From Rugosibacter aromaticivorans (GTDB taxonomy: Bacteria; Pseudomonadota; Gammaproteobacteria; Burkholderiales; Rhodocyclaceae), in the NCBI RefSeq assembly GCF_000934545.1, contig NZ_CP010554.1, positions 744,001 through 808,000 of the forward strand: a DNA stretch of 64,000 nucleotides. The letters run 5' to 3'. Below are positions 17,528 through 60,383 of this stretch, one piece after another. Below the pieces are notes generated by a model that saw only the letters and a list, made by a program, of their open reading frames with translations, did no database searches and was not told where the DNA came from. The position numbers and the translations under genes were made by a program. Numbering within the stretch: position 1 is the first letter of the stretch; every line of letters starts with the position of its first letter.

Positions 17528-17553
17528 TCGCCGTCTCACCAGCGCCGATTTTT
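17528..17553 (-). repeat. Dispersed repeat copy, dut-aceB intergenic
   Basis: On the minus strand this reads AAAAATCGGCGCTGG then TGAGACGGCGA, matching the family at all but two or three positions. It sits between the convergent ends of dut and aceB, where a terminator would be expected, but the TCGGCG/CGGCGA arms do not pair perfectly. Confidence 0.75.
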
Positions 17554-17578
17554 TGTGGTCGACGCGCTGGGCTTTAGC

Positions 17579-19183
17579 CTAAACCATGGCCTCGTACAGC
17601 GGTAAGGTGAGGAACTCAGGGTAGTTGTCAGCCAGCGACATTTCCTCGAAAATTTTCGCGGCTTGATCGTAGGTCATCGTCGTATTGCCGCTTTCAGCAA
17701 CCGTGGTTTTTACCTTTACCAGCTCTTCGCAAATCAATCCGCGAACCATATCGGCAGTTACTTTACGGCCATCGTCGAGCTTGCCTTTAGGCGAGACAAC
17801 CCATTGCCAGATCTGTGAGCGACTGATCTCCGCAGTAGCCGCATCTTCCATGAGGTTGTGAATAGGCACACAACCATTCCCGGCTAACCAGCTGCCTAGG
17901 TAATGAATGCCTACATTGATATTATTGCGAACACCTGCTTCCGTAATCGGTTGCTCGGGTTGAAAATTGAGCCAATCGCGAGGGCCAAAGCTTTCATCGC
18001 GTTGCTTTTCCCATTGATTGGGACGGTCGCCAAGTACTTTCTGAAACTCCTCTGCGGCAATAGCAACGAGCCCCGGGTGCGCTACCCAGCCACCATCGAA
18101 GCCATCTGAAGCATCCCGTGTTTTATCGTGGCGAATTCCTGCCAATGCTTTTTCATTCGCAACAGGATCGTTTTTGATCGGGATCAGCGCGCTCATGCCA
18201 CCTATCGCGGGGGCGCCACGTTTGTGGCAGGCTTTCACCAGAGCTAATGCGTAACTCCGCATAAAAGGCACTTCCATCGTGATGGCCCCACGATTGGCAA
18301 GACAGAAATCCGTATTGCGTTTGAATTTTTTAATGCAACTAAAGATGTAATCCCAGCGACCTGCATTCAGCCCGGCACTATGGTCGCGCAGCTCATAAAT
18401 AATTTCTTCCATCTCGAAGGTGGCGAGAATGGTCTCTATGAGCACCGTCGCTTTAATCGACCCTCGAGGCAGGCCAATTTCATTTTGAGCCACGATGAAA
18501 ATATCATTCCATAACCGGGCTTCGAGATGACTTTCCATCTTCGGTAAATAGTAGAAGGGCCCAGCACCCTGTGCTATCTGCTCTTTGGCATTGTGAAAGA
18601 ATGCCAAGGCAAAATCGAAAATTCCGCCAGAGACGCGTTGCCCGTCAACCAGCACATGCTTTTCATCAAGGTGCCAGCCGCGTGGTCGAATCTGCAAGGT
18701 GGCGATTTTGTCGTTGAGTTTGTATTCTTTTCCCGCGTCATTTTTAAATGACAGCTCACGGCGAATCGCTTTATACAGGTTGATTTGTCCCTGAATCTGG
18801 TTTTCCCATTTAGGACTGTTAGAGTCCTCGAAATCAGCCATATAGCTGTCAGCGCCTGAATTAAAGGCGTTAATAATCATTTTGGCTTCAACGGGCCCGG
18901 TAATTTCTGTTCGGCGGCGTTCAAGCGCTTTGGGTAGTGGAGAAATTTTCCATTCACCTTCGCGAATGTGCCTGGTTTCCGGCAAAAAGTCTGGCATTTC
19001 GCCCGCGTCAATACGCTGTTGACGTTCCGCTCGAGCAGCAAGAAGTTGTTGACGCCGTGGCTCGAAGGATCGATGAAGCTTAGCGATCAGTTCAAGCGCT
19101 TCACGAGTCAGAATCTGCGAAAAATCGGCAGTGACGGGCGCAGTGATTTGCATACCGTAAGGAAGTGTTGTTGGGTGGCTCAT
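17579..19183 (-). CDS. aceB: Malate synthase A
   Basis: The 534-residue enzyme condenses glyoxylate with acetyl-CoA to give malate, the second step of the glyoxylate shunt. Family stretches include YMADFEDSNSPKWENQIQGQ, RPRGWHLDEKHV, YLPKMESHLEARLWNDIF and IGGMSALIPIKNDP. Length fits the AceB (MSA) class rather than the longer GlcB class. It is the downstream partner of aceA, separated by 89 bp that include a strong hairpin. Confidence 0.97.
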   Translation of the reverse strand: MSHPTTLPYGMQITAPVTADFSQILTREALELIAKLHRSFEPRRQQLLAARAERQQRIDAGEMPDFLPETRHIREGEWKISPLPKALERRRTEITGPVEAKMIINAFNSGADSYMADFEDSNSPKWENQIQGQINLYKAIRRELSFKNDAGKEYKLNDKIATLQIRPRGWHLDEKHVLVDGQRVSGGIFDFALAFFHNAKEQIAQGAGPFYYLPKMESHLEARLWNDIFIVAQNEIGLPRGSIKATVLIETILATFEMEEIIYELRDHSAGLNAGRWDYIFSCIKKFKRNTDFCLANRGAITMEVPFMRSYALALVKACHKRGAPAIGGMSALIPIKNDPVANEKALAGIRHDKTRDASDGFDGGWVAHPGLVAIAAEEFQKVLGDRPNQWEKQRDESFGPRDWLNFQPEQPITEAGVRNNINVGIHYLGSWLAGNGCVPIHNLMEDAATAEISRSQIWQWVVSPKGKLDDGRKVTADMVRGLICEELVKVKTTVAESGNTTMTYDQAAKIFEEMSLADNYPEFLTLPLYEAMV

Positions 19184-19232
19184 GAGATTCCTTGAGATGA
19201 GTTGAATGACTGTTTATGAAGTAGTAGCGATG

Positions 19233-19270
19233 ATTCCGCAATGGTCATTGATTTCCAGCCATTGCGGAAT
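19233..19270 (-). other. Stable hairpin between aceA and aceB
   Basis: A perfect 12-bp stem, ATTCCGCAATGG (19233-19244) with CCATTGCGGAAT (19259-19270), lies two bases after the aceA stop. There is no T run on the transcribed strand, so it is more likely a 3' stabiliser or a processing/attenuation element that sets the aceA:aceB ratio than a full terminator (inference). Confidence 0.7.
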
Positions 19271-19272
19271 TA

Positions 19273-20571
19273 TTAATGGAATTGTGCTTCTTCAGTCGAT
19301 CCTGTCAGTGCTGTAACGGAGGACCCCCCGCCTTGAATAACCGTCGTGATATCGTCGAAGTATCCGGTGCCCACTTCTTGCTGATGAGAGACAAAACTAT
19401 ATCCACGGTCACGTGCTGAAAATTCCGGTTCTTGTACTTTTTCGACATAGGCCGTCATGCCACGTGCGACATAATCTTGCGCTAAATCAAACATGCTGTA
19501 CCACATAGAGTGAATGCCGGCGAGGGTTATGAACTGATACTTGTAGCCCATGGCACCCAGCTCGCGCTGAAATTTTGCAATGGTGGCGTCGTCAAGATTT
19601 TTCTTCCAGTTGAACGAGGGTGAGCAATTGTATGCCAGCATTTTCCCCGGGTGTTTGGCATGCACGGCAGCAGCAAACTGGCGAGCAAAATTTAAGTCGG
19701 GGGTGCCTGTTTCGCACCAGACTAAATCTGCGTAAGGCGCATAAGCGATCGCACGTGATATGGCTTGGTCTATGCCGCTGCGTGTTTTATAAAAGCCTTC
19801 GTTTGTCCGTTCTCCTGTGCAAAAGGCTGTGTCATTTGCATCGTAATTTGATGTCAAAAGATCCGCTGCTTCGGCATCGGTACGGGCAATCACGAGTGTG
19901 GGGATACCGCAGACGTCAGCTGCCATACGTGCGGCAATTAATTTTTGTACGGCTTCGTTGGTCGGCACGAGTACTTTGCCGCCCATATGACCACATTTTT
20001 TGACCGAAGCCAGTTGATCTTCCCAATGAACACCACTTGCACCAGCGCTAATCATCGCTTTCATCAGTTCAAAAGCATTCAATACACCGCCAAAGCCTGC
20101 TTCAGCATCAGCTACGATAGGAGCAAAGTAATCGATGTAATTTTTATCACCGGCTTCTATCCCTTTAGCATATTGAATCTCATCCGCACGGCGAAATGAG
20201 TTATTGATCCTCTCGACAACTTTAGGCACAGAATCAACTGGATAGAGTGACTGATCAGGATACATGGCGGCGTAGCTGTTATTGTCTGCAGCAACTTGCC
20301 AACCAGAAAGGTAAATTGCCTTAATGCCGGCTTTAACCTGTTGCATTGCTTGCCCGCCAGTGAGCGCGCCGAGGCAATTAACGTAAGGCTGGTTGTTCAG
20401 CAAATCCCATAATTTTTCTGCCCCACGACGTGCCAGGGTATGCTCAATTGGAAAAGAGCCACGAAGACGAACGACATCCTCGGCCGAGTAGCCTCGTTTA
20501 ATGCCTTTCCAACGCGGATTGTTTGCCCAGTCTTTTGCCAGGGTGGCAGCAACTTCTTTGCGATCAGTCAT
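19273..20571 (-). CDS. aceA: Isocitrate lyase
   Basis: The 432-residue enzyme splits isocitrate into glyoxylate and succinate. The signature [11 protein letters not shown] with the catalytic cysteine is present, with [19 protein letters not shown] at the N-terminus and [14 protein letters not shown] later. I place the start at ATG 20571 because AAGGA lies six bases before it; an ATG two codons upstream would overlap that site. With aceB and the nearby icd this sets the glyoxylate-shunt branch point, which allows growth on acetate or fatty acids. Confidence 0.97.
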
Positions 20572-20862
20572 TTTCATTCCTTAAAAAGAGGGTTATACAG
20601 GAGAGGATGAACAAGGATGCAAACGCATTATTAATTAAAAAATATAATATGTCAATTATCTTATATAAGACTTATAAATTTAAAATAAATCAAATTGCAC
20701 TTCGGGCGGAAGTGCGGTACGTTGTTGTTTTAATGGGTAAGGATAAAAAGCTTTGGCCGTAGCCGTTGCCAAGAGCCGCTTGAAATGTATTAAACGTCAG
20801 GTTAACGGCGGCGTTTAAGGCGGCACTACATAGATCATATGCCGCAACATTGGAGGACTATG
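20572..20862. promoter_or_regulatory. AT-rich intergenic region carrying the aceA promoter
   Basis: This stretch upstream of aceA has no gene. Positions about 20625-20700 are strongly AT-rich (runs such as AATTAAAAAATATAATATG), as expected for an upstream promoter region. I cannot fix a -35/-10 pair with confidence. Confidence 0.4.
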
Positions 20863-20896
20863 AAAAAACTCGGCGCTGGCGAGACGCCGAGTTTTT
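20863..20896. terminator. clpA terminator formed by a dispersed repeat copy
   Basis: AAAAAACTCGGCG and CGCCGAGTTTTT flank loop CTGGCGAGA, giving a perfect 7-bp GC-rich stem extended by A:T pairs and a T run in both directions. It lies 18 bp after the clpA stop. The loop and left arm (ACTCGGCGCTGGCGAGACG) are a copy of the dispersed repeat, so in this place the repeat works as a terminator. Confidence 0.85.
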
Positions 20897-20913
20897 GGTG
20901 ATTGCATTATTAT

Positions 20914-23190
20914 TTAACCGACGGTAGATGATGAGGTTGTCGGGTTGGTGACAGCGTCTTCGAATGTCAGTTTAACTTTCTCGTTTTCGTCAAGATCGAT
21001 AATTACTCGGCCACCATGAATCAATCGGCCGAACAACAATTCATCCGCTAAGGCGGAACGGATTGTGTCTTGAATTAAACGCGCCATGGGGCGGGCACCC
21101 ATTAAGGGGTCAAAGCCTTTTTCACCCAGCCATGCACGAAGAGCATCCGTGAAGATAGCCTCGACCTTTTTCTCGTGTAGCTGGCCCTCAAGCTGCATGA
21201 GAAATTTATCAACGACGCGCAGAATAATCTGTGCATCCAAGGCGCGGAAGGAAATGATGGCGTCCAGTCGATTACGGAACTCTGGCGTGAACAGGCGCTT
21301 GATATCGACCATTTCATCACCTTGCATTTTATTTGTCGTAAAGCCGATGCTGGTTTTTTGTAAAGATTCTGCACCAGCATTTGTGGTCATGATAATGATC
21401 ACATTGCGGAAGTCTGCCTTGCGACCATTGTTGTCAGTCAGTGAGCCGTGATCCATTACCTGCAGCAGGATATTGAAAATCTCAGGGTGTGCTTTTTCTA
21501 TTTCATCAAGCAAGAGAACCGCATGCGGTTTTTTAGTGATGGCTTCAGTTAGCAATCCACCCTGATCGAAACCAACATAGCCCGGCGGGGCACCTATGAG
21601 GCGGCTGACGGCATGACGCTCCATATATTCGGACATATCAAAGCGAATGAGGTCAATGCCCATGCAATAAGCCAGTTGTCGAGCCACTTCGGTTTTGCCA
21701 ACACCCGTGGGGCCAGAGAAAAGAAAGCTGCCAATTGGCTTTTGCGGGTCACCCAGCCCTGAGCGAGACATTTTGATGGCTTTAACCAGCGCGTCTATGG
21801 CCGCATTTTGGCCATAGACCATATTCATGAGATCACGGTCGAGATTTTTTAGTGCTGATCGATCATCTGATGAGACGTGTTTTGGCGGAATTCGCGCAAT
21901 TTTTGCAACAATCTCTTCGATTTCAGTTTTACCAATCAGCTTCTTTTGTTTCGATTTCGGCAAAATGCGTTGTGCTGCACCCGCCTCATCAATCACGTCG
22001 ATGGCTTTATCAGGTAAATGCCGATCATTAATATATTTGGCCGACAATTCAGCAGCACTAGAGATGGCAGCAGCCGAATATTTAACACTATGGTGTTCTT
22101 CAAAGCGAGACTTAAGGCCACGCAGAATGGAGACGGTTTCATCGACCGATGGCTCATTGACATCGACTTTCTGGAAGCGCCTAGATAGCGCGTGATCCTT
22201 CTCGAATACGCCGCGATATTCGTTATAGGTGGTTGCACCAATACACTTGAGCGCACCAGAGGATAACACTGGCTTTAGTAGATTGGAGGCGTCAAGTGTT
22301 CCGCCTGAGGCAGCGCCAGCGCCGATTAAGGTGTGAATTTCATCAATGAACAAAATCGAGTTTGGCGTGTCAGCCAATTGCTTCAGTACAGCCTTTAAAC
22401 GCTGCTCAAAGTCACCTCGATACTTTGTTCCAGCCAAGAGGGAACCCATGTCGAGTGAGTAAACAATGGCATTAGAAAGAATATCAGGCACACGGCCTTC
22501 AGTAATACGACGTGCAAGACCTTCCGCAATAGCGGTTTTTCCAACGCCGGCTTCGCCAACGAGCAGGGGGTTATTTTTGCGGCGTCGGCAAAGTGTTTGG
22601 ATGACGCGCTCCAGTTCCTTATCCCGCCCTATCAACGGATCTATCTTGCCAATCAGTGCTTGCTGATTAAGGTTTTGTGCAAAACTTTCAAGCGCCCCCG
22701 CTTTTTCTTGCGATTCTGCTTCAGTTTCAGCCGTTTCCTCTTTGCTCTGGGATGGCGGAATCTTAGCGATGCCGTGAGATATAAAGTTCACCACATCAAG
22801 GCGCGAAATATTCTGTCGCTGGAGGAAGTACACCGCGTGCGAATCTTTTTCACCGAATATCGCAACCAGAACATTGGCGCCGGTCACTTCTTTTTTGCCG
22901 GACGACTGCACGTGCAAAATGGCGCGTTGAATGACTCGCTGAAAACCTAGGGTGGGTTGAGTATCGATCTCATCGGTACCATTAACCGTAGGCGTGTGAT
23001 CGCTAATAAAAGTGGTTAGCTCTTTGCGAAGTCCATCCATATCAACAGCGCAAGCGCGCAACACCTCAGCGGCAGACGTGTTATCAAGCAGAGAGAGCAG
23101 CAAATGTTCAACCGTAATAAATTCGTGGCGCTTCTGACGTGCATCCACGAAGGCCATGTGTAAGCTAACTTCAAGTTCTTGGGCAATCAT
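20914..23190 (-). CDS. clpA: ATP-dependent Clp protease ATP-binding subunit ClpA
   Basis: A 758-residue AAA+ unfoldase that feeds substrates to ClpP (clpP is not in this window). After the N-terminal Clp repeat domain come two ATPase modules: D1 with Walker A GEAGVGKT and [10 protein letters not shown], and D2 with [19 protein letters not shown] and [10 protein letters not shown] ClpP-contacting IGF-type loop is present as TSIGFTT. The start overlaps the clpS stop (TGATG), so adaptor and unfoldase are coupled. Confidence 0.97.
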
Positions 23191-23510
23191 CAGTTTTCCT
23201 CCATAACGCAGGCCAGCGGGTGCTGGTGTTGCCGTGCAAATGCACTAACCAGTTCAACTTTCGTTGCAGCAATATCCAGAGGATAAACGCCGCAAACGCC
23301 TTTCCCTTCACGGTGCACCTTCAACATAACCTGCATCGCCTGTTCGCGTGACAGATTAAAAAACTTTTCTAGAACCATCACGACAAAATCCATCGGCGTG
23401 AAATCATCATTAAGCAGCAACACCTTGTACATCGGCGGTAAGCTTGCCTTACTTTTTTCCGGGGCTAGTGCGGCATCACTGCCCGTACCAGTTTCTCTGC
23501 GTGTAACCAT
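23190..23510 (-). CDS. clpS: ClpS adaptor for the N-end rule pathway
   Basis: A 106-residue adaptor that delivers substrates with destabilising N-terminal residues to ClpA. The core [24 protein letters not shown] (residues about 28-51) and the substrate-pocket stretch [20 protein letters not shown] are conserved. The N-terminal extension is unstructured, as is usual. It directly precedes clpA. Confidence 0.97.
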
Positions 23511-23905
23511 GAGTACATTCTAATGTTAATTACGAAGGTTTCAACTCAATTTCAACTCAACAAAAGCAGGCTTTATATGGGGGATAAAAAGTGCAATTCA
23601 AGTTGTTTTGCATGCTAGCCTCAGAGGCTGGTCAGTGATAAAGTGGTCAAATATGTGCGGCGCAACATAAAAAGTTGTTGACGCGGATGAACTTAGTAGG
23701 TAAAACGCACACCGTGTTTAGCTTATGTTTTGCTCAGAGTCTTTCGAAATTCTTTCTGCCTTTAGAAATTTATGGTTTGTTTGAATTAAAAAATTCTTTT
23801 TTGCGCTCTTGAACTTAAGTGTTAAACATGCCCCGGCCGGGGTGCGGTTTCTCTTGTAGCCCGCAGCGGTGGCCGATTTGTTCGTTTTGATTAAGGAATA
23901 GTTAC
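23511..23905. promoter_or_regulatory. Divergent regulatory region between clpS and the cold-shock gene
   Basis: A 395-bp region without a gene. It must hold the clpS promoter on the minus strand and the cold-shock promoter and long 5' leader on the plus strand. A TTGACG at about 23677 is a possible -35 element. Long leaders of this kind commonly act as thermosensors in csp mRNAs (family knowledge; structure not shown here). Confidence 0.4.
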
Positions 23906-24109: not shown

Positions 24110-24129
24110 GGTTTTTTACTTGAGACGCT

Positions 24130-24184: not shown

Positions 24185-24190
24185 GTTTAG

Positions 24191-24226
24191 AGCCCGCCCC
24201 TGATTAAGTCAGGGGCGGGCTTTTTC
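24191..24226 (+). terminator. Rho-independent terminator of the cold-shock gene
   Basis: AGCCCGCCCCTGA pairs with TCAGGGGCGGGCT around TTAAG, followed by TTTTTCTC. A 13-bp GC-rich stem. Confidence 0.93.
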
Positions 24227-25626: not shown

Positions 25627-25652
25627 AAAAGTCGGCGCTGGTGATACGCCGA
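25627..25652 (+). repeat. Dispersed repeat copy, miaB-icd intergenic
   Basis: The full core AAAAGTCGGCGCTGG is followed by TGATACGCCGA. In this copy TCGGCG and CGCCGA can pair as a 6-bp hairpin. It lies between the end of miaB and the start of icd, both on the minus strand. Confidence 0.85.
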
Positions 25653-25708: not shown

Positions 25709-27034
25709 CTAGGTGATCATTTCCCCGCGCAGGCTGTTCGGGCGTGTTGCAGTGATGCGGACATCAATCAGCCGCCCTAAAAAGCTGTCATCGCCAGCGA
25801 AATTAACGACGCGATTATTTTCAGTACGTCCTGCGAGTTCTTGCGCATTTTTTCGAGCGTGTCTCTCTACCAGAATACGCTGCACACTACCTACCATCGC
25901 CTCGCTTTGAGTCATGGCTTGGAGCCCGATCTTTTTTTGGAGGCGCATCAACCGGCCTGCCTTCACATCCTGAGGTGTGAGATCGCTCATTGCGGCAGCT
26001 GGTGTTCCCGGACGCGCGCTATAAAGGAAGGAGAAGCTGTTGTCAAAGTTGAGCTCCTCAATCAGTTGCATTGTTTTCTCAAAGTCTTCGTCTGTTTCCC
26101 CAGGGAAGCCGACAATGAAGTCGGACGAGAGCGAAAGGTTGGGGCGTGCAGATTTTAGTTTGCGCACCAGTGATTTATATTCAAGCACGGTGTACCCCCG
26201 CTTCATTGCTGACAATATACGGTCTGACCCTGATTGGACGGGCAAATGTAAATGGGAGACCAACTTGGGTACCGTGCGGTAAACGTCAATCAGCCGCTGT
26301 GTTACCTCGCGCGGGTGCGACGTTGTGAAACGGATGCGTTGGAGCCCTTCAATTTCAGCGATGGTTTCAATAAGAAACGCCAGATCGGCTGTGTCACCAT
26401 CATCCATTGGGCCGCGGTACGCATTAACATTTTGCCCCAGCAATGTAATTTCGCTGACACCTTGTGCGACGAGGCCGGAAATTTCAGCTAAAACATCGGC
26501 GAATGGCCGCGAAATTTCTTCTCCTCGTGTGTAAGGCACGACACAAAAAGTGCAGTATTTCGAGCAGCCCTCCATGATCGAAACCAAAGCAGAAGCGCCC
26601 TTTGTTTTAGCCGCAGGCAAGCGATCGAATTTTTCAATTTCGGGAAACGTAATGTCAACCTGCGGCCGCCCCGTTGCGCGGCGTGCAGCAATCATTTGCG
26701 GTAAACGATGCAGTGTTTGTGGTCCAAAGACAACATCAACATAAGGCGCACGATGGACAATTGTCTCGCCTTCCTGGCTGGCGACGCAGCCACCTACGCC
26801 AATAATGAGATTTGGATTGAGTTTTTTCAGATACTGGACACGGCCTAGATCGTGAAACACTTTCTCTTGTGCTTTCTCGCGAACAGAGCAAGTATTGAAG
26901 AGAAGAATATCTGCCTCTTCAGGGTTGTCCGTTCGAGTTGAGCCCTCTGCGCCAGCGAGGACGTCGGCCATTTTGTTGGAATCATATTCATTCATCTGGC
27001 AGCCAAAGGTGCGTATGAATACTTTCTTGGTCAT
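25709..27034 (-). CDS. miaB: tRNA-2-methylthio-N6-dimethylallyladenosine synthase
   Basis: A 441-residue radical-SAM methylthiotransferase that modifies A37 of tRNAs. The N-terminal UPF0004 domain has [14 protein letters not shown] with further cysteines for an auxiliary cluster ([16 protein letters not shown]). The radical-SAM motif is [15 protein letters not shown]. The C-terminal TRAM domain ends the protein ([14 protein letters not shown]). miaA is not in the window. Confidence 0.97.
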
Positions 27035-30899: not shown

Positions 30900-31988
30900 T
30901 TAGGCGGGATAGATTGCACCAAGGATGCGCGGCCCGTGAGCGCCGGTAACGGCAGGCAAGTTTCCTGGTTGCCTTGAGATGGCGCGCCACGCTAACCAGG
31001 CAAAGGCTACGGCCTCGACCCAATCGGGCGGTTGCCCCAAAAAGTCGGTGCTGGCAATACGGCAATGGGGAAGGTGATGTTGTAAGCGAGCCATTAATGT
31101 CGCGTTATGAACCCCGCCACCACAGACGAAAACTTCATCCGGATGGCCGCACCACTGCTGGATGGCTTGTGCCGAGATAAGTGCTGTAAGCTCCGCTAAT
31201 GTGGCTTGAACATCTTCTGGACGTTCACCACCGTCGAGAAACTGGGAAAGCCAGGGCATATTGAAGCCGTCTCGTCCGCAGCTTTTAGGGGGTGGCGAAT
31301 GGAAAAATTTATCCGCCATCAACTTTTCGAGCAGGGATGGGGAAATCACCCCTTGACTAGCCCAGCTACCCCCCTTGTCGTACTGAATTCCTTGTATGGC
31401 ATCAATCCATGCATCCATCAACACATTACCCGGCCCACAGTCGAAGCCCTGAATCGGTTTTTCAGGATTGAGATCGGTCAGATTGGCAAAACCACCTATG
31501 TTTAGAATGACGCGATGTCGGCTTGATGAACTAAAAACCTCGGCATGAAAAGCAGGAACTAGTGGCGCACCCTGTCCCCCAGCGGCGATATCACGGCTAC
31601 GAAAATCAGCAACAACGGTAATTTTAATTAGCTCGGCGAGTAGGGCCGGATTGTTCAGCTGTAAGCTATACCCAGCGTTAGGTTGATGCCTAACGGTTTG
31701 GCCGTGACAGCCAATAGCGGTCACTTGCTCCGGGGAAATGTGTGCTTTTGCAAGTACATTCTCGACTGCGTGTGCATAAAGTTGCGCTAAGTCGTTAGCC
31801 AGAAGTGCCGCTATATGAAGCTCATTACTTCCCGCCGACTGAAGCCGTAATGCTTGATCGCGTAATGGGGTTGGATAGGGTAGCCAGACTGTGGCGAGTG
31901 TTTGTGGTGTGCCAGAAGAAAAATCGACAAGCACTGCATCAACACCATCAAGGCTCGTGCCTGACATTAGCCCTATAAAAAGTTGCAC
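30900..31988 (-). CDS. anmK: Anhydro-N-acetylmuramic acid kinase
   Basis: The 362-residue kinase opens and phosphorylates 1,6-anhydro-MurNAc released from cell wall turnover. The start FIGLMSGTSLDGVDAVLVDF is the family signature; GCHGQTVRHQP, NIGGFANLT and the nucleotide-binding VCGGGVHN also fit. AmpD, which works earlier in the same recycling route, is encoded at 57.3 kb. Within the gene, 31040-31065 is a copy of the dispersed repeat, read here as CRIASTDFLG near the C-terminus. It follows the M23 peptidase on the minus strand, so two cell-wall genes are adjacent. Confidence 0.95.
   Translation of the reverse strand: MQLFIGLMSGTSLDGVDAVLVDFSSGTPQTLATVWLPYPTPLRDQALRLQSAGSNELHIAALLANDLAQLYAHAVENVLAKAHISPEQVTAIGCHGQTVRHQPNAGYSLQLNNPALLAELIKITVVADFRSRDIAAGGQGAPLVPAFHAEVFSSSSRHRVILNIGGFANLTDLNPEKPIQGFDCGPGNVLMDAWIDAIQGIQYDKGGSWASQGVISPSLLEKLMADKFFHSPPPKSCGRDGFNMPWLSQFLDGGERPEDVQATLAELTALISAQAIQQWCGHPDEVFVCGGGVHNATLMARLQHHLPHCRIASTDFLGQPPDWVEAVAFAWLAWRAISRQPGNLPAVTGAHGPRILGAIYPA
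31040..31065 (+). repeat. Dispersed repeat copy inside anmK
   Basis: AAAAGTCGGTGCTGG then CAATACGGCAA on the plus strand, antisense to anmK, with a single mismatch in the core. It remains in frame, encoding the CRIASTDF region, so it is tolerated by the protein. Confidence 0.75.
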
Positions 31989-36757: not shown

Positions 36758-36857
36758 GGTCTGCGATAACCGGCGCATGGCGGCGTTGTCGCATGGCTTG
36801 CCTGCGAAAAGTCGGCGGCGGGGCCCTCCGCCTTGACTCGCTTGATTCTCGCAGACC
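36758..36857 (+). other. Hairpin-closed block in the tRNA-Ile/tRNA-Ala spacer
   Basis: GGTCTGCGA (36758-36766) pairs with TCGCAGACC (36849-36857), closing a 100-base block. Inside, near 36810, is AAAAGTCGGCGGCGG, a degenerate copy of the dispersed repeat. The stem may guide processing between the two tRNAs. Confidence 0.5.
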
Positions 36858-46047: not shown

Positions 46048-46665
46048 CTATTTTCTGAATTGCTGGCATTGTGCTTTTCGTATTTGCCACACCATGCGGG
46101 TGCTGAGGAGCGCAGTGAGTATGACCCAGTAAATTAGCGGTTTTCTGATATCCGCTTTGACCATCCAAGTGTAGTGCAGCACGGCAAGAGCGCCGCAGAG
46201 GTAAACCATGCGGTGCAGTTGTTGCCACCGGCGCCCGCCAAGTTTGCGTATTGCTCGCGCATTGGATGTTGCGGCCAAAGGTATTAGCAGGAGAAACGTT
46301 GTCATTCCTACTGTGATGAATGGGCGTTTAAATATATCTTTGCCAATGGCTAGCCAGTCAAAAAACTGGTCAAACCAAAGATAGGTTGTCAGGTGCAGGC
46401 TGGCATAGAAAAAAGCAAACAGGCCCAGCATGCGCCGAACGATAAGTGGCCATGTCCAGCCGGCATAGTGTCGTAGTGGTGTGGCTGCTAGTGTAATCAG
46501 CAAAAAATTTAGCGCCCAAGTGCCCAGTCCGCGAGTGACCGCTTCAATCGGATTTGCGCCGAGATTGTCTGTTTGAATTCCCCACGCATACCAACCTAGC
46601 GGTGCCAAGCTGGCAGTAAAGACAAACAACTTCAACCCATTCAGCTTCAACCCATGCGGCCTCAA
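46048..46665 (-). CDS. msrQ: Heme b membrane subunit of the periplasmic methionine sulfoxide reductase
   Basis: A 205-residue protein with six hydrophobic segments and heme-ligand histidines (for example [15 protein letters not shown] and LHRMVYLCG). It passes electrons from the quinone or flavin pool to MsrP. Its start overlaps the msrP stop by 4 bp, so the subunits are coupled. Confidence 0.94.
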
Positions 46666-47585
46666 AAGTATTTCCTCAAATCCAATCCGGTGTACAGCTG
46701 CGCGACTTGATCTGCATACCCATTAAAGGGCAAGGTTTTTCGTTTGAAAAACTCACCAATGCGGCGTTCAGTTGCCTGACTCCATCGCGGATGGTCTACA
46801 GTGGGATTAACGTTTGAATAAAAGCCATATTCACTGGGGGCGGATTTCATCCAGGTTGTGCGCGGCTGGCTATCGGTGAGGCGAATCTTGACAATCGACT
46901 TACCGCTTTTGAAGCCATATTTCCAAGGAACCACAAGTCGCAATGGGGCACCATTCTGGTTTGGCAAGACGTCCCCATACAGTCCTGCCGCCATGATGGT
47001 CAATGGGTGAAGGGCTTCATCCAGACGCAAGCCTTCGGTATAAGGCCAATCCAGAACGCCACGGCGTATGCCAGGCATGGTATCGGGCTGCACTGCCGTG
47101 ATGAACTCAACATATTTTGCGCTGCCCAAGGGCTCGACTTGTTTCAGTAAACTCACTAACGGAAAGCCGAGCCAAGGGATCACCATGCTCCATCCTTCAA
47201 CGCAACGCAGGCGATAGATCCGTTCTTCCAGCGGAGCGAGTTTAAGAATCTCTTCCATGCCCATCGTTTTTGGTTTTTTTACCAAGCCTTCAATCGAGAC
47301 GGTCCAAGGCTTGACACGCAGGGTGTGCGCATACTCTGCCGGGTCTTCTTTGTTAGTCCCAAACTCGTAAAAATTGTTGTAGCTAGTGACATTTTTTAGC
47401 GACGTGGGCGCCTCAGTCGTTGAAAAAACACTGGCTTTGCCGGGACCAAGCCTGGCTTGGGCTTCCGGAAGAAATCCGGCAATGGCTATCCCAGCAGAGA
47501 GTCGTAAAAATTCGCGGCGACGTGTGTAAAGCGCGTGCGAGGTAATTTCAGAAGGCACGATATGGTTTTTTTGCAGAATGCGCAT
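46662..47585 (-). CDS. msrP: Periplasmic methionine sulfoxide reductase catalytic subunit (molybdopterin)
   Basis: About 307 residues. The N-terminus carries a twin-arginine export signal, [21 protein letters not shown]. The molybdenum-ligand cysteine lies in [20 protein letters not shown]. Other conserved stretches are [12 protein letters not shown] and [17 protein letters not shown]. It repairs oxidised methionine in envelope proteins together with MsrQ. I choose the ATG at 47585, which has GGAG nine bases before it, over a TTG 16 codons upstream. Confidence 0.95.
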
Positions 47586-47705
47586 CAGAGTTTTCTCCGT
47601 CAAATAATCACCAGACTCACTGAGTAGACGCAAAATTCAGCGATGCCTTACAAAATAATTCTGATCGATACAAATGCTGCAAATTAAGCCGGTAATTGAA
47701 TATTA

Positions 47706-47731
47706 TTGCCGTATCACCAGCGCAGACTTTT
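47706..47731 (-). repeat. Dispersed repeat copy, msrP-grxD divergent region
   Basis: On the minus strand: AAAAAGTCTGCGCTGG then TGATACGGCAA, one mismatch to the core. It lies between two divergent start codons, where a terminator is not expected, so the repeat cannot be only a terminator. Confidence 0.8.
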
Positions 47732-47843
47732 TGAGTAAAGCCGATTAGTATCGTCGCCATGTGCACGCTATAAGCGCTTGACGCCGATAAGGCCAGACCG
47801 CTAGAATACCTGATCTTTTTACTCAGCTATTTTGGAGTGTGCC

Positions 47844-48167
47844 ATGGATACCCGGAAAAAAATTCACGCGCTTGTGACCAGTAGTCCCATCGTGTTGTTC
47901 ATGAAAGGTACGCCGCAGTTTCCGCAGTGTGGTTTTTCTTCGCGTGCGATACAAATTCTTAACGCGTGTGGCGTGAAAAATATGGTCACGGTGGATGTGT
48001 TAGCCGATCCAGAGATACGTCAAGGCGTTAAAGATTACGCGAATTGGCCGACGGTTCCCCAGCTATACATCGCAGGTGAATTCATGGGTGGAAGCGACAT
48101 CATGACGGAAATGTACGAGGCGGGTGATCTGCAGAAATGTATTGATCTTTTAGCCAGTGCCCACTGA
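47844..48167 (+). CDS. grxD: Monothiol glutaredoxin (CGFS type)
   Basis: A 107-residue glutaredoxin with the CGFS site (Cys29) in KGTPQFPQCGFSSRAIQIL and WPTVPQLYIAGEFMGGSDIM. Such proteins carry [2Fe-2S] clusters with glutathione and take part in iron-sulfur trafficking. The ATG at 47844 has GGAG six bases before it. Confidence 0.95.
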   Translation: MDTRKKIHALVTSSPIVLFMKGTPQFPQCGFSSRAIQILNACGVKNMVTVDVLADPEIRQGVKDYANWPTVPQLYIAGEFMGGSDIMTEMYEAGDLQKCIDLLASAH

Positions 48168-51030: not shown

Positions 51031-52044
51031 ATGCCAAGTATAACGGGAAACCTTGTGACATCGGGCCTGCCAGACTTCCGCCAGGGAGCTTTGTGGCTAC
51101 GCACATTGCTCGTGGTGAATTTGGTCATGGTGTTGAGTGTTCTGGCTGCGAATCGCGACTGGGCGCACCTGTTCATAGAGTTCATCGAGATTGCGGCTTT
51201 GCTCGAACCAGTGCTGCTAGTGAATCTTGTGGTTTTTTCCCTGATTTCAGACTGGATTACGCCTTTGCCTCGGCGTACTGGATGGGCAATGTTTCTGTTA
51301 CTGAGCTTATTGGTGACGGCTGCTGTACATGGTTTTTTTGTTGCCATGCAGTGGACGCAGATCGGGCTGGGGCGAACGGCGATGTGGTCAGTCGTGGTTA
51401 CTTATTTGCTACTTGTCTGGTTCGATCTGGTGGTTCGTGCGCAATCGCCGGCCTTGGCCGAGGCGCGATTGATGGCGCTGACTGTGCGCATTCGTCCCCA
51501 CTTCTTATTCAATACATTGAATGCTGTTCTTGGTGTGATGCGCTCAGAACCAAAGCGTGCTGAAAGCGCTTTAGAGGAGCTCTCTGATTTGTTTCGGGTG
51601 TTGATGCGCGAAAACAGAACATTGGTGCCTTTATCAGAGGAGATAGCGGTAGCGCGGCAGTATCTCAATCTCGAGCGCCTCCGATTGGGGGACCGCATTC
51701 AGGTGCAGTGGGATATGGCCTCTTGTCCGCCCGACCCACTGGTGCCGCCACTCATGCTTCAGCCCTTACTGGAAAACGCGGTGTACCATGGCATTGAACC
51801 ATCCACCCAACCTGGAGATATTTTGATTCGATGCGAGCAGGTAAACAACCGAGTGCGACTTGAGCTTTCAAACAACTTAGCTACGGACAATCGTCACGCT
51901 CAAGGTAATCAAATGGCACTGGCCAATATTCGCGAGCGTCTATTGCTTTTTTTTCAACTCGAAGCTGTGATGACGACGGGAATCCATGAAGGTCGTTTTC
52001 ACGTATTGATTGAATTTCCCTACCGGCGGCACGTTGCATCATGA
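51031..52044 (+). CDS. LytS/AlgZ-family sensor histidine kinase
   Basis: A 337-residue protein with about four N-terminal membrane spans (residues 20-145) and a His_kinase domain of the LytS type: phosphoacceptor in RIRPHFLFNTLNAVLGVMR, ELSDLFRVLMR, and ATPase motifs LLENAVYHGIEPS and NQMALANIRERLLLFF. It overlaps the next gene by 4 bp (ATGA). In Pseudomonas the pair AlgZ/AlgR controls alginate and twitching; in betaproteobacteria the pair next to argH is conserved but its targets are less known. Confidence 0.9.
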   Translation: MPSITGNLVTSGLPDFRQGALWLRTLLVVNLVMVLSVLAANRDWAHLFIEFIEIAALLEPVLLVNLVVFSLISDWITPLPRRTGWAMFLLLSLLVTAAVHGFFVAMQWTQIGLGRTAMWSVVVTYLLLVWFDLVVRAQSPALAEARLMALTVRIRPHFLFNTLNAVLGVMRSEPKRAESALEELSDLFRVLMRENRTLVPLSEEIAVARQYLNLERLRLGDRIQVQWDMASCPPDPLVPPLMLQPLLENAVYHGIEPSTQPGDILIRCEQVNNRVRLELSNNLATDNRHAQGNQMALANIRERLLLFFQLEAVMTTGIHEGRFHVLIEFPYRRHVAS

Positions 52045-52805
52045 GTGAGCCGTTACGTCTTTTTCTGGTCGATGATGAAGCGCCGGCGCGTACTCGTTTG
52101 CGAAATTTGTTGAGCGATATTGCGGAGGAGGTTCCCACCACGATAGTCGCTGAGGCTCATGACGGCCACAGTGCGTTAGCGTTAATACAAGCGCATCCAT
52201 GCGATATTGCCTTGGTCGATATACGCATGCCCGGGATGGATGGCGTCGAGTTTGCACGGCATCTCGCTCGCTGGCCCGCAGCGCCAGCTGTGATCTTTGT
52301 CACTGCGTATGATCAATATGCCGTTAGCGCTTTTGAGTTGGCCGTACTGGATTACCTTGTCAAGCCGGTACGCGCGGCGCGCCTTGCTGTAGCTTTGCAG
52401 AAGGCAAAGCGTCATCCGGATGAGGTTGAACGTCTTGAAAAGTCGGCGCTGGCAACACGGCAACATCTGTCTTGTTTTGAGCGCGGTCGCGTTTTGCTTG
52501 TGCCCGTAACAGATATTCTCTACCTGAAAGCCGAGCAGAAATACGTCATAGCGCGCACGGCGGAACGCGAGTATCTGCTTGAGGAGTCACTGGTGAAGCT
52601 TGAGGCTGAGTTTGCCGAGCGCTTCTTGCGCGTCCATCGAAATTGTCTGATCGCGCCGGGGGCGGTGATTGGTATGCAACGTGCCAGCGCCGAGGGCGAA
52701 AAGGATGACTTCTGGCAGGTGATGCTGTCTGGCATCAATGAGCACATCCCCGTCAGCCGTAGGCAGTGGCCTTTGATAAAAAATCTTCTCAAGCACGGAG
52801 GCTAG
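52041..52805 (+). CDS. algR: LytTR response regulator (AlgR family)
   Basis: A 254-residue regulator. Receiver domain: acidic pair in FLVDDEAPARTRL, phosphoacceptor Asp in IALVDIRMPGMDG, Lys in VLDYLVKPV. LytTR DNA-binding domain from about residue 150: ILYLKAEQKYVIARTAEREYLLEESLVKLE and RVHRNCLIA. The linker between the domains (residues about 133-141, EKSALATRQ) is encoded by a copy of the dispersed repeat. Partner kinase lies immediately upstream. Confidence 0.92.
   Translation: MSEPLRLFLVDDEAPARTRLRNLLSDIAEEVPTTIVAEAHDGHSALALIQAHPCDIALVDIRMPGMDGVEFARHLARWPAAPAVIFVTAYDQYAVSAFELAVLDYLVKPVRAARLAVALQKAKRHPDEVERLEKSALATRQHLSCFERGRVLLVPVTDILYLKAEQKYVIARTAEREYLLEESLVKLEAEFAERFLRVHRNCLIAPGAVIGMQRASAEGEKDDFWQVMLSGINEHIPVSRRQWPLIKNLLKHGG
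52438..52463 (+). repeat. Dispersed repeat copy inside algR
   Basis: AAAAGTCGGCGCTGG then CAACACGGCAA, a full core match. It is in frame and encodes part of the flexible linker between the receiver and LytTR domains, where an insertion would do little harm. Confidence 0.85.
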
Positions 52806-53958: not shown

Positions 53959-54043
53959 CGGCTGAATGTCAGAAACGATGCTGGGCCTCACTGTTTTTTC
54001 GGCCATTTTCCCGCAGCATCGTTCATTAGTATCCACTCACCGT

Positions 54044-54122
<79 letters not shown>

Positions 54123-54148
54123 ACCTTCACACATAGGCGGGTGATTTT

Positions 54149-57299: not shown

Positions 57300-57856
57300 G
57301 CTCGCTATTTAGTTCTGAACAAGACGAGGGGTGGTTACCCGAAGCCCGGCGTATTCTTTCGCCGAATTTTGACGAGCGCCCTGTAGAAAACGATATTTGT
57401 CTAGTTGTAGTCCATGCCATCAGTTTGCCACCAGGAATGTTTGGCGGGCAGGGCATTATTGATTTGTTTACTAACCAGCTAAATCCGGAAGACCATCCTT
57501 ATTATCGCGAAATATCCAACCTACGAGTTTCGGCACATTTGCTAATACGGCGTAATGGCGAGTTAATTCAATTTGTATCCCTATGGAAACGCGCGTGGCA
57601 TGCTGGGGTTTCCGAATGGGCAGGTCGTGAGCGATGTAATGATTTTTCAATCGGGATTGAGCTTGAGGGTTGCGATGAGTTATCTTTTGAAAAAGCGCAA
57701 TATGCAACGCTCAATGCGGTATTAGCTGATCTGTTGGCTCGCCACCCTATACAAGCCGTTGTTGCCCATAGTGAGATAGCTCCCGGGCGTAAAACAGACC
57801 CGGGACCACTGTTTGACTGGGATAGTGTAATTTGTCCAGCCGTCTACCCCGGATAA
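57296..57856 (+). CDS. ampD: 1,6-anhydro-N-acetylmuramyl-L-alanine amidase AmpD
   Basis: A 186-residue zinc amidase that removes the peptide from anhydro-muropeptides in the cytoplasm. Zinc ligands lie in VVVHAISLPPG and in VAHSEIAPGRKTDPGPLFDW (His and Asp). ISLPPGMFGG and RAWHAGVSEWAGRERCNDFSIGIELEG are family marks (the latter in two pieces). It overlaps the pilR stop by 4 bp. AnmK at 31 kb handles the sugar it releases downstream. Confidence 0.95.
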   Translation: MSSLFSSEQDEGWLPEARRILSPNFDERPVENDICLVVVHAISLPPGMFGGQGIIDLFTNQLNPEDHPYYREISNLRVSAHLLIRRNGELIQFVSLWKRAWHAGVSEWAGRERCNDFSIGIELEGCDELSFEKAQYATLNAVLADLLARHPIQAVVAHSEIAPGRKTDPGPLFDWDSVICPAVYPG

Positions 57857-57901
57857 GAATCCACTCCTTTTCGAGATTTATCAGTGCGATTTATGTTTTT
57901 C

Positions 57902-57926
57902 AAATAACACTTAGCAGGTGTTATTT
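57902..57926 (+). terminator. Hairpin after ampD
   Basis: AAATAACAC pairs with GTGTTATTT around TTAGCAG, 46 bp after the ampD stop. AT-rich and with only a short T run, so a weak terminator. Confidence 0.5.
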
Positions 57927-58110
57927 ATGCCAAAAGAATTAATTCTTCGGTGCCAGTGCGTAAACTAAAACAAATTGATAGACGGATAAACGGGCGGAAT
58001 TCATTGTTTTCAATTGCATTAAAGGCATGGATAATTCACATCAACCCAATTGGGTTGTATTAAATAAAGAAGCGGCTCTTCCCTGTTAAAACTTGTTAAG
58101 GAGACTCACC

Positions 58111-58665
58111 ATGGTTGTAAAGAAGAAAATAGCCACGGCACCGGCAGCGAAGAAGCCCGCTGCCAAAAAACCAGCGGCGAAAAAAGTTGCTGCTAAAAAG
58201 CCAGAAGTTAAGAAAGTAGTTGCCAAAAAACCAGCAGCGACTAAAGTCGCCGCTAAAAAGCCCGTCGTGAAGAAAGCTGCTGCTAAAAAACCGGTAGTGA
58301 AGAAAGTCGCCGCTAACAAGCAGGCCGTTAAAAAGGTGGCTGCTAAAAAACCAGCAGTGAAGAAAGTTGCTGCTAAAAAACCGGTAGTGAAGAAAGTTGC
58401 TGCTAACAAGCAGGCCGTTAAAAAGGTGGCTGCTAAAAAGCCAGCAGTGAAGAAAGTTGCTGCTAAAAAGCCAGTTGCCAAGAAAGTGGCTGCAAAAAAA
58501 CCTGCAGCTAGCCCCGTAGCCAAAAAGCCCGCTGCAAAGAAAGTTGTCGCTAAGAAGCCTGCTGCAAAACCTGCTGCAAAGCCATCAACTGCTGCAACAC
58601 CAGGGTTAAAGTCTTCACTTAATCCGGCAGCTGCTTGGCCTTTCCCTACTGGGTCCCGCCCATAA
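58111..58665 (+). CDS. Lysine/alanine/proline-repeat histone H1-like protein (AlgP type)
   Basis: A 184-residue protein made almost wholly of KKPAAKK, KKVAAKKP and KKPVVKK repeats (residues about 2-150), with a short tail NPAAAWPFPTGSRP. Such proteins resemble the eukaryotic histone H1 tail and AlgP/HC1-type bacterial proteins, and bind DNA through charge. TAAGGAGACTCACC gives a strong binding site for the ATG at 58111. Repeat number is likely to vary between strains because the DNA is internally repetitive. The PilR/AlgR context suggests a surface-gene link, but that is inference. Confidence 0.85.
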   Translation: MVVKKKIATAPAAKKPAAKKPAAKKVAAKKPEVKKVVAKKPAATKVAAKKPVVKKAAAKKPVVKKVAANKQAVKKVAAKKPAVKKVAAKKPVVKKVAANKQAVKKVAAKKPAVKKVAAKKPVAKKVAAKKPAASPVAKKPAAKKVVAKKPAAKPAAKPSTAATPGLKSSLNPAAAWPFPTGSRP

Positions 58666-58682
58666 GGAAAACGCTGGCAAGT

Positions 58683-58757
58683 GGTTACTTTCTTAAAAGT
58701 AACCGTGATGCTGGGTTGAAATGTAAGCGCGTGCTGTTAAGTCGGCACGCGCTTTTT
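58683..58757 (+). terminator. Two hairpins after the H1-like gene; the second is a terminator
   Basis: GGTTACTT pairs with AAGTAACC (58683-58704). AAGCGCGTGC (58725-58734) pairs with GCACGCGCTT (58745-58754), followed by TTTTTATT. The second is a strong Rho-independent terminator. Confidence 0.85.
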
Positions 58758-58851
58758 ATTTCCCGCAAAACAATAGATTGGAATCCATGCATTGTCCTAT
58801 TGTGTTTTAACGATGCCGTGACGTGGCGTGACATCGTAGATGCTGCATGCC

Positions 58852-58877
58852 AAAAGTCGGCGCTGGTAACATGGTAG
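58852..58877 (+). repeat. Dispersed repeat copy, H1-like gene to tRNA-Asn
   Basis: AAAAGTCGGCGCTGG then TAACATGGTAG. Full core, with a diverged right half. The rest of the 58758-58951 interval shows nothing else I can name. Confidence 0.8.
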
Positions 58878-58954
58878 ATCGTCGGTAGGGTCAATCAACG
58901 GGGCAGAATGCTTTAGTAAAGCGGCCAAGGTGAATAAAAAAATTCCGTGGACAA

Positions 58955-58983
58955 AAAAAGCCCGCAGTAACGCGGGCTTTTCA
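58955..58983 (-). terminator. Terminator of tRNA-Asn
   Basis: AAAAGCCCGC pairs with GCGGGCTTTT around AGTAAC, with A/T runs on both sides; it lies just after tRNA-Asn on the minus strand. Confidence 0.85.
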
Positions 58984-58987
58984 ATTC

Positions 58988-59063
58988 TGGCTCCTCGACC
59001 TGGGCTCGAACCAGGGACCTACGGATTAACAGTCCGGCGCTCTACCGACTGAGCTATCGAGGA
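58988..59063 (-). tRNA. tRNA-Asn (GTT)
   Basis: A 76-base cloverleaf on the minus strand: acceptor TCCTCGA/TCGAGGA, anticodon loop ACTGTTAAT (GTT), T-arm TGGTTCGAGCCCA, discriminator G, encoded CCA. Confidence 0.97.
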
Positions 59064-59120
59064 ATATGAAGGCGCGAATTATAGCCACAGGAGCTAGCGC
59101 CTGCAATACCTTTCGCGTGT

Positions 59121-60329
59121 TTACTTTTTGCCGATGACGGATGCGGTGGCGGTGGCTACGTAGTCAATATTTTTGGTGTTGAGTGCAGCCAGGCAGATGC
59201 GGCCGGTGCTGACAGCATAAATAGCGAACTCGGTTTTTAGTTGTTCAACTTGTTGGGCCGTCAGCCCAGTGTAGGAAAACATACCGCGTTGTTTGACCAC
59301 AAAAGAAAAGTCCTGCGGTACGTTTTTTTCCTTGAGTTTTTCTACGAGCGAAATGCGCATGGCACGAATGCGTTCGCGCATGGTGGCGAGTTCAGCTTCC
59401 CATTGCTGACGTAACGCGGAGCTGGATAGTACGGCCGCAACAATGGCGCCGCCGTGGGTCGGCGGGTTGGAGTAGTTGGTGCGGATAACGCGTTTGACTT
59501 GCGAGAGTACGCGGGCGGATTCTTCCTTGTTTTCTGTGACTAGCGTTAGCGCGCCAACCCGTTCGCCGTAGAGTGAGAAGGATTTTGAAAAGCTGCTGGA
59601 AACTAAAAATTGAAGGCCGGATGCAGCAAATAAGTTCAGCGCAACGGCATCTTCAGTGATGCCGTCAGCAAAGCCCTGGTAGGCCATGTCGATAAAAGCA
59701 ATCAGATTTTTTTCGCGAATAACGGCGACCACTTGTTTCCATTGCTCAGCGGTAAGGTCAGCGCCTGTTGGGTTGTGGCAGCAGGCGTGCAGAACGATGA
59801 TGGCGTTGGCTTCCAGTGCGGCAAGGTAGGCCTTCATGGCGGCAAAATTCACGCTATGGGTGGCGGCATCGTAGTAAGGGTAGTTTTCTACGGTAAACCC
59901 GGCGGATTCAAACAGGGCGCGGTGGTTTTCCCAGCTGGGGTCGCTAATGTAGACTTTTGAGCTGGGGTAGAGCCGCTTGAGAAAATCTGCACCAACTTTT
60001 AATGCGCCTGTACCACCGAGTGCTTCAATGGTAACGGCGCGGCCTTCTTTGATCAGCGGGGAGTCTGTGCCGAAAATGAGATTTTGTACGCTTGTATTAA
60101 AGGCACCCAGGCCTTCGATGGGCTGATAGCCGCGCGCTGGGGCGGCTTCCAGACGCGTTTTTTCAGCGGCTTTGACTGCTTCGAGCAAGGGGAGCTTGCC
60201 GTTATCGTTGTAATAAACGCCCACGCCTAAATTAACTTTGTTGGGGTTGGTGTCGGCATTAAAGCCTTCGGTCAGGCCAAGAATGGGGTCGCGGGGGGCT
60301 AATTCAACCGCCGAAAAAATTGAGGTCAT
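59121..60329 (-). CDS. Aspartate/aromatic-amino-acid aminotransferase
   Basis: A 402-residue PLP enzyme of the AspC/TyrB group. It starts MTSIFSAVELAPRDPILGLTEGF; the PLP lysine is in SSFSKSFSLYGERVGALT; HACCHNPTGADLT and the substrate arginine near NYSNPPTHGGAIV also fit. Whether it prefers aspartate or aromatic substrates cannot be settled. The start at 60329 is supported by the family; 22 upstream codons would run through a dispersed repeat copy. A copy of that repeat is therefore in its 5' leader. Confidence 0.93.
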   Translation of the reverse strand: MTSIFSAVELAPRDPILGLTEGFNADTNPNKVNLGVGVYYNDNGKLPLLEAVKAAEKTRLEAAPARGYQPIEGLGAFNTSVQNLIFGTDSPLIKEGRAVTIEALGGTGALKVGADFLKRLYPSSKVYISDPSWENHRALFESAGFTVENYPYYDAATHSVNFAAMKAYLAALEANAIIVLHACCHNPTGADLTAEQWKQVVAVIREKNLIAFIDMAYQGFADGITEDAVALNLFAASGLQFLVSSSFSKSFSLYGERVGALTLVTENKEESARVLSQVKRVIRTNYSNPPTHGGAIVAAVLSSSALRQQWEAELATMRERIRAMRISLVEKLKEKNVPQDFSFVVKQRGMFSYTGLTAQQVEQLKTEFAIYAVSTGRICLAALNTKNIDYVATATASVIGKK

Positions 60330-60357
60330 GAGATTCCAGAAAATGATGATGTTAGGT

Positions 60358-60383
60358 AAAAATCGGCGCTGGTGAGACGGTGT
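60358..60383 (+). repeat. Dispersed repeat copy in the aminotransferase 5' leader
   Basis: AAAAATCGGCGCTGG then TGAGACGGTG. It lies 29 bases before the aminotransferase start (minus strand) and in the divergent region facing uvrB. Confidence 0.8.

Follow-up and report, generated by a model that had tools for sequence, protein, structure and literature searches.

A dispersed 25-bp word in Rugosibacter aromaticivorans and related Rhodocyclaceae resembles a DNA-uptake signal

A 64,000-nucleotide stretch of the Rugosibacter aromaticivorans genome, hereafter the window (positions 744001–808000 of a single contig of 2,934,611 bases), holds ten copies of a short word that is scattered over the whole genome. 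The repeat unit, AAAAGTCGGCGCTGG-tgan-ACGGCG, is 25 base pairs (bp) long with the consensus AAAAGTCGGCGCTGGtganACGGCG, and comparison of its copies within and between genomes suggests that it is probably the footprint of a sequence-preferring DNA-uptake system. An earlier note on the window had described a dispersed family of at least eight copies on both strands and had offered three candidates, among which the DNA-uptake-like signal fits best; a nucleoid or chromosome-segregation site is less likely, and a repetitive extragenic palindromic (REP) element moved by a REP-associated tyrosine transposase (RAYT) does not fit. The note had also proposed looking at counts in relatives, replication-strand bias, spacing, intergenic enrichment, a motif-flanked RAYT gene and com/pil uptake genes, the results of which are given below.

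All eight copies named in the earlier note lie where it had placed them, and two that it had missed, at 622–647 and 7025–7050 on the forward strand, bring the total in the window to ten (Table 1); a supposed degenerate copy near 36810 resembles the core by chance, the place at 36807 scoring −15.4 bits. In a scan of the window with a 26-column weight matrix, the ten copies scored 32.7–42.1 bits and the next-best place 1.1 bits, so the family is sharply bounded. The 15-base core with up to three mismatches occurs at 13 places in the window, compared with a mean of 2.32 (standard deviation 1.65) in shuffled sequence, where none of 100 shuffles reached 13. Genome-wide, with up to two mismatches, there are 479 copies, 238 forward and 241 reverse, against 20 for a reversed-pattern control, which confirms dispersal on both strands. 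Most of our further statistics come from an 864-kb sample, consisting of 40 stretches of 20 kb from this genome (27% of it) and the window. Here a weight matrix found 141 copies of at least 14 bits (72 and 69 on the two strands), and a slightly different matrix gave 143 matches at this threshold versus one in simulated sequence of equal length. A count no higher than chance, which the note had named as the result that would undo its claim, was thus not what we found; the word is high-copy, dispersed and strand-balanced, as uptake words are. The unit has a sharp 5′ end, and the flanks on both sides are scarcely or not conserved. Exact self-pairing of TCGGCG with CGCCGA is present in 4 of the 141 copies and the common form is no palindrome, bearing out the proposal that primary sequence is conserved rather than pairing.

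Conservation of the word in its own genome amounts to 34.9 bits, whereas 13.6 bits are enough to locate this number of sites. Conservation exceeded need in all seven genomes modelled, this one and six others (G016, 38.5 bits conserved and 13.0 needed; G233, 34.1 and 13.1; G222, 33.0 and 13.3; G018, 32.5 and 13.6; G202, 28.6 and 14.0; G179, 23.8 and 13.8), by a smaller margin in G202 and G179, with the qualification that matrices built from few copies (17–45; for G179, 19 from seven seeds) may overstate the bits. A site conserved purely for recognition is expected to lie near the lower, needed figure. This excess, taken with the joint change of hundreds of sites between genera that we describe below, favours a drive such as biased uptake.

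The word is shared by part of the family, as the counts in relatives show. All eight other genomes of the genus hold 312–524 copies of a 22-mer with up to three mismatches (controls, 0–1). Among 199 genomes from 68 genera of the family, a draw from a larger group, 22 genomes in seven genera were rich, with 282–802 copies, and the remaining ones held at most 43, mostly near control counts. In an order-wide draw of 150 genomes, R. aromaticivorans (403 copies) and one family member, G044 (164 copies), were rich, and 12 others had 1–5 copies. At least 80 genome contigs carry the word; among those listed, titles name chiefly Rhodocyclaceae, Rhodocyclales, Sulfuritalea, Rugosibacter and Sulfurisoma, and some name Propionivibrio, Thiobacillus, Burkholderiaceae or unplaced proteobacterial bins. 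A tree of UvrB from the 30 closest genomes puts its 21 rich members in two blocks, and motif-poor genera stand between these blocks and next to them; the rich/poor label takes two changes, a number equalled in 47 of 500 shuffles, and the deep forks of the tree are weak.

Motif-poor relatives were also inspected. The close relative G241 has one weak match, and none of at least 20 bits, in 138 kb. Counts of 10-mers in 80 kb each of G013, G200, G239, G220 and G023 gave no clear other dispersed word, in a test that is weak, since in the rich genome G233 the word itself comes out only eighth. In G239 the 10-mer GACGATGCCG was counted at 17 dispersed positions within 80 kb (L509–L512), where 0.34 would be expected. 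Two contigs (C66 and C104) of the motif-poor genome G211 hold several copies each, which may stem from contamination with sequence of a rich relative or from transfer out of one, and overlapping 12-mers with 49–50 occurrences in G236 (L464–L470) probably belong to a clustered regularly interspaced short palindromic repeats (CRISPR) array or another repeat array.

Across the relatives that carry it, the word is spelled in dialects. The samples gave AAAAGTCGGtGCTGGCGaGACGGCG for G016, gAAAgTCGGCGCTGGCGGgACGGCAC for G233, nAnAGTCGGCGCtGGCGnnACGGCGa for G222 and aAAAGTCGGCGctGGCGggACGGcg for G202; G018, in which the R. aromaticivorans word is nearly absent, holds aAAAGTCAGTCcCngCgGcACGGCG, of equal length, and G201, among the matches listed, has mostly AAAGTCGACGC. 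One distant genus spells AAAAGTCAGTCcC. Short dialect forms are GGCGCTGG, GGTGCTGG (G016), ...ACGGCAC (G233), AGTCcC (G018) and, again among the matches listed, GACGCTGG (G201). The AAAAGTC...ACGGC ends and the length are constant and the middle differs, which is the pattern of uptake-word dialects. With zero mismatches, the frame AAAGTC-N12-ACGGC occurs 101–677 times in the 22 rich genomes and 459, 393 and 445 times in three of the four genomes of G018's genus; G179 has 87 copies, G300 63 and G266 26, and other genomes have 0–16. G306 (genus g11) holds five bipartite copies compared with 393–459 in three sister species, a pattern that may reflect loss, non-gain or a further dialect.

To see how copies arise, we compared predicted proteins of R. 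aromaticivorans with 311 loci of relatives using tblastn, retaining pairs of at least 55% identity and asking for at least 25 bits for the motif on one side and at least 12 bits for the partner; pairs with the motif in both genomes can be counted from both sides. Among 79 orthologous pairs with a motif on one side, 39 partners have it and 40 do not. Fourteen of these 40 motif-free rows, representing 11 sites, are gap-free at and near the motif, four have gaps in the flanks only and 22 have gaps in the footprint. The ungapped examples include WIVGAGGTAVIAHP versus WIRGAGGLAVIAHP, IESALVTRRE versus IEAALEARRT, AKVGARQTA versus PKSGARRAS and, with the motif on the relative's side, DSISEKSALALR versus DSICGKSPVAIA. 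Gap-free non-motif sequence in relatives indicates that the copies at these 11 sites arose by substitution and not by insertion of a 25-bp element. In a smaller earlier run, 14 of the 17 gapped rows in which the R. aromaticivorans motif had no partner motif came from trmD, where loop length is variable. Seven other genomes of the genus have a trmD match, and six of these carry the motif at the same place, as does G009; it is absent from G007 and 15 more distant relatives, whose loop differs in length or sequence.

A home-made gene finder, which called 85.3% of bases coding, placed 101 of the 141 copies within genes and 40 between them; because it misses genes (the copies at 622 in psd and 31040 in anmK were counted as intergenic), 101 is a lower bound. 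The in-gene copies are read as KVGAGDTA (38), AVSPAPTF (26), RR..SADFS (18), EKSALATRR (14) and others (5), and the choice of reading frame is strong within each orientation, the frames being of a kind that genes tolerate. Point-mutation origin (14 of 79 pairs, 11 sites) and tolerance within genes (at least 101 of 141 copies) are both features of uptake words. Close neighbours are avoided: one of 105 spacings is below 500 bp, compared with about 8.3 expected, and 11 are below 1,000 bp, compared with 15.9 expected.

Five of the 40 stretches of 20 kb from this genome are copy-free, and all five have mobile or conjugation genes among the 2–5 proteins scanned in each (Table 1); no such type was found among ten proteins from copy-bearing stretches (the two longest genes in 5 of 35 stretches). 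In four other rich genomes, 3 of 33 stretches are copy-free (17 proteins scanned). Low density in mobile DNA, known from uptake words, is thus seen in five of five copy-free stretches here and in one of three elsewhere. A word-free combination of a recombinase and a D5-type primase occurs in two genera (L152 and L454).

Machinery for DNA import is present, the search for com/pil genes having returned both ComEC and a pilin cluster. ComEC (PF03772) was detected in all 35 genomes tested, and the R. aromaticivorans genome has ten N_methyl pilin-like matches. The cluster, at 2.79 Mb, encodes a PilE-type pilin matching the Pfam family ComP_DUS (44.8 bits, cut-off 27.3) as well as a GspH-type pilin, and the PilE-type gene has a copy of the word 86 bp upstream. 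An AlphaFold model of this PilE-type pilin (P0001), based on 65 sequences (mean predicted local distance difference test score 83.1, predicted template modelling score 0.69), is predicted to be a generic minor-pilin fold, not specifically ComP. Elsewhere, near G000:C1:2049700 (L193), a 93-amino-acid frame with an N_methyl pilin motif is followed downstream by a 153-amino-acid open reading frame (ORF) with a signal-peptide-like start, a layout that we take to resemble the split pilin arrangement of Geobacter.

From these observations we infer an uptake preference, a receptor and a recombination drive. A type IV or competence pilus receptor would bind AAAAGTC...ACGGCG on free DNA, and word-bearing fragments would be preferentially taken up and recombined. 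Point mutation together with biased transformation could then spread the word to every few kilobases of the core genome, where it would settle at places and in reading frames that genes tolerate, and recently arrived mobile DNA would still be without it. In related genera the middle would have drifted into dialects, with both ends and the length kept.

Several observations weigh against this reading. ComEC is equally common without the motif (35 genomes, rich and poor), and the ComP_DUS family occurs in 184 of the 199 family genomes, rich or poor alike, and no match to it turned up in three rich drafts (G005, G201 and G290). The R. aromaticivorans pilin has weak matches only in seven of the 22 rich genomes (G002, G005, G194, G201, G278, G290 and G302), and strong ones in poor genomes. 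Co-occurrence singles out no receptor, as the ComP_DUS family, the ComP-like pilin and ComEC all occur both with and without the motif. Of the copy-free stretches in other genera, L454 is mobile, and L493 is defence-like by its domains and L438 holds a catabolic cluster. Copy numbers in the 20-kb units show no overdispersion (variance/mean 1.11, p = 0.28), with 5 of 43 units empty at a mean of 3.26 copies. Viral contigs in IMG/VR carry copies as well, in at least 120 stretches; the loci, picked for holding a copy, contain 216 copies in 1.12 Mb, and among ten motif-bearing viral ORFs, taken from ten of the first eleven loci, four are DNA methyltransferase-like and one resembles tail protein J (L257, L258, L264, L266 and L260), so phages may carry the tag. 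Finally, a preference for one orientation in genes, reported for all known uptake words examined (PMC2346458, in excerpt), was not seen among the 101 in-gene copies, 53 of which lie on the gene's strand and 48 on the opposite one. Its absence slightly lowers our confidence in an uptake signal and in the fuller proposal given further on, and raises that in a protein-binding site.

Such a site, recognized by an intracellular DNA-binding protein (nucleoid-associated, Noc- or SlmA-like, or another chromosome-organizing factor), is the main rival, a possible explanation that we nevertheless regard as unlikely. It would fit a word met all along the chromosome on either strand, the substitution origin at some sites, the avoidance of close neighbours and the failure of any candidate uptake receptor examined to track the word, and mobile stretches would lack the word as recent arrivals. 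Harder to reconcile with it are the conservation of 34.9 bits where 13.6 suffice and the joint change of hundreds of sites as genus dialects. Density also shows no gradient or confinement between origin and terminus, running at 2.0, 1.55, 1.25 and 1.73 copies per 10 kb in the sample, with the origin set by guanine–cytosine skew, close to the contig ends. The same profile bears on a replication- or recombination-polarising motif such as FtsK-orienting polar sequences (KOPS), Chi or matS, with which the many copies of the word and its conservation across part of the family would agree. Known KOPS and Chi are short words with a strong skew, and matS is restricted to the terminus; here, in the 27% sample and the window, the leading-strand excess is 81 to 60 copies and not significant (p = 0.09), so that the strand bias that the earlier note had thought worth checking did not emerge, and we consider a motif of this kind very improbable.

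Even less probable, in our view, is a mobile short element spread by insertion, such as a REP with its RAYT transposase or a miniature inverted-repeat transposable element. REP elements occur in hundreds of short copies per genome, as the word does, and the genome has two Y1_Tnp genes: one scores 74.7 bits with the REP-associated family NF047646, just short of the cut-off of 80, and the second, a 97-amino-acid open frame, has one copy within 3.2 kb. Although a RAYT-like gene is thus present, as the note had anticipated, no copy flanks it within 3.3 kb around the gene. No sequence is conserved beyond the 25 bp, and a 25-bp insertion would shift the frame where we see gap-free residue replacement at 11 in-gene sites. 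It was chiefly on these ungapped orthologous sites that REP/RAYT was rejected, the word being neither palindromic nor mainly intergenic. Least probable of all is a terminator or other RNA element recurring at gene ends. Intergenic copies are over-represented, as the note had suggested checking (40 of 141 copies versus 14.7% of bases, p = 2e-5, an upper bound on the excess since the gene finder misses genes), 12 of 37 placed intergenic copies lie between convergent genes, and the copy at 20865 forms a hairpin followed by a T-run. Against this, at least 101 of 141 copies lie within genes, on either strand, and an exact complementary arm nearby or within was found in 7 of 141 copies, one of them T-tailed, in a count that covers exact arms and in which terminators of other build were not sought.

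Table 1 Copies of the 25-bp word in the window, and copy-free 20-kb stretches of the same genome
Feature	Position	Strand	Score (bits)	Context
Copy	622..647	+	36.4	Within phosphatidylserine decarboxylase family gene (ORF 2–682; Pfam)
Copy	7025..7050	+	41.8	Within trmD (6795–7541), read as KVGAGDTV
Copy	17528..17553	-	40.4	Between convergent dUTPase (17029–17505) and malate synthase A (17579–19183) genes
Copy	20865..20890	+	37.5	3′ of clpA (20914–23190); terminator-like hairpin with 3′ flank, T-run
Copy	25627..25652	+	42.1	3′ of miaB (25709–27034), upstream of isocitrate/isopropylmalate dehydrogenase family gene
Copy	31040..31065	+	37.4	Within anmK (30900–31988, minus strand; Pfam)
Copy	47706..47731	-	37.0	Between divergent msrP (46662–47633) and glutaredoxin (47832–48167) genes
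Copy	52438..52463	+	39.5	Within LytTR response-regulator gene (52041–52805), read as EKSALATRQ
Copy	58852..58877	+	32.7	Intergenic; histone H1-like gene on one side, tRNA gene on the other
Copy	60358..60383	+	36.2	Divergent region between aminotransferase gene and uvrB (60524)
Copy-free stretch L152				Recombinase, D5-type primase, DNA methylases
Copy-free stretch L159				Phage integrase, transposases; also ring-hydroxylating oxygenase, GGDEF/EAL protein
Copy-free stretch L162				ParB, primase, ArdC domain
Copy-free stretch L163	G000:C1:1027111-1047110			TrbI, TraH, TraG; SAVED-domain gene close by
Copy-free stretch L175				CagE/TrbE protein, SNF2 helicase

Two neighbours of the copies in the window deserve mention. 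The family match of the aminotransferase near 60358 begins at residue 26, and its real start may be downstream of the copy. At 58113–58562 (ORF 58093–58665), the window encodes a histone H1-like protein of the HC2 family, with tandem repeats of 30 bp.

The titles and passages surveyed in the open-licence literature, which subscription papers lie largely outside, yielded no description of the 25-bp word and nothing joining DNA uptake sequences to Rhodocyclaceae. Two families, Pasteurellaceae and Neisseriaceae, include species in which a strong sequence preference in DNA uptake has been described (PMC7811141, in excerpt). If our reading is true, Rhodocyclaceae would be a third family with uptake words, in environmental bacteria, and a third case would open up questions on the origin of uptake words, on whether mate choice or a side effect of receptor bias lies behind them, and on how dialects split gene pools. 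We lean, with less assurance, towards a fuller proposal drawn from the comparison of sequences: that these words are a third lineage of self-DNA uptake signals, that the bipartite 25-mer is longer and richer in information than its counterparts in the other two families, that the AAAAGTC and ACGGC ends may be two receptor contacts, and that the genus-level dialects of the middle may act as sexual barriers. The dialect series, together with the word-free close genus g120 and the near-empty G306 within a dialect genus, makes comparative mapping of the receptor feasible.

The closest known systems are the DNA uptake sequence (DUS) of Neisseriaceae, whose receptor is ComP, and the uptake signal sequence (USS) of Pasteurellaceae. 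Like the word described here, DUS has many dispersed copies and dialects with a constant core; its dialects follow phylogeny, and some members of the family have no obvious DUS (PMC3630211, in excerpt), while integrative conjugative elements stand out by an atypical distribution of DUS (PMC7371117, in excerpt). DUS differs in being the 10-mer GCCGTCTGAA, present in about 1,900 copies, whereas our word is 25 bp and bipartite, with 479 core copies in 2.9 Mb; few of these copies form hairpins, they show no gene-orientation preference and no ComP-type protein examined tracks them. Terminators hold the uptake word in up to 22% and 37% of cases in some species of the known families, with DUS reaching 37% (PMC13020248, in excerpt). 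The 10-mer occurs on neither strand of our consensus, which does not show the CTG core of DUS. In AGACGGC-type copies, such as 17528–17553, the reverse strand reads GCCGTCT, the first seven letters of the DUS 10-mer; since only GCCGT is constant across dialects, this likeness may be chance, and the GCCGT end could also be a trace of a shared ancestral pilin specificity. USS, like our word, is dispersed, evolves by point mutation and has variant motifs by lineage, with a core and conserved flanks and an average spacing of about 1,000 bp (PMC7811141, in excerpt), a higher density than we find; USS has a 9-bp core with AT-rich flanks, whereas all 25 bp are strongly conserved here. Its core, AAGTGCGGT (PMC13020248, in excerpt), occurs on neither strand of the consensus. 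REP/RAYT systems share the hundreds of short copies and the RAYT-like gene, and differ in that our copies lie mostly in genes, replace sequence without gaps at the sites tested, have a non-palindromic common form and do not occur in the 3.3 kb around the RAYT-like gene. On our best reading, the word would work like Neisseria DUS and Haemophilus USS, and by sequence it is a member of neither.

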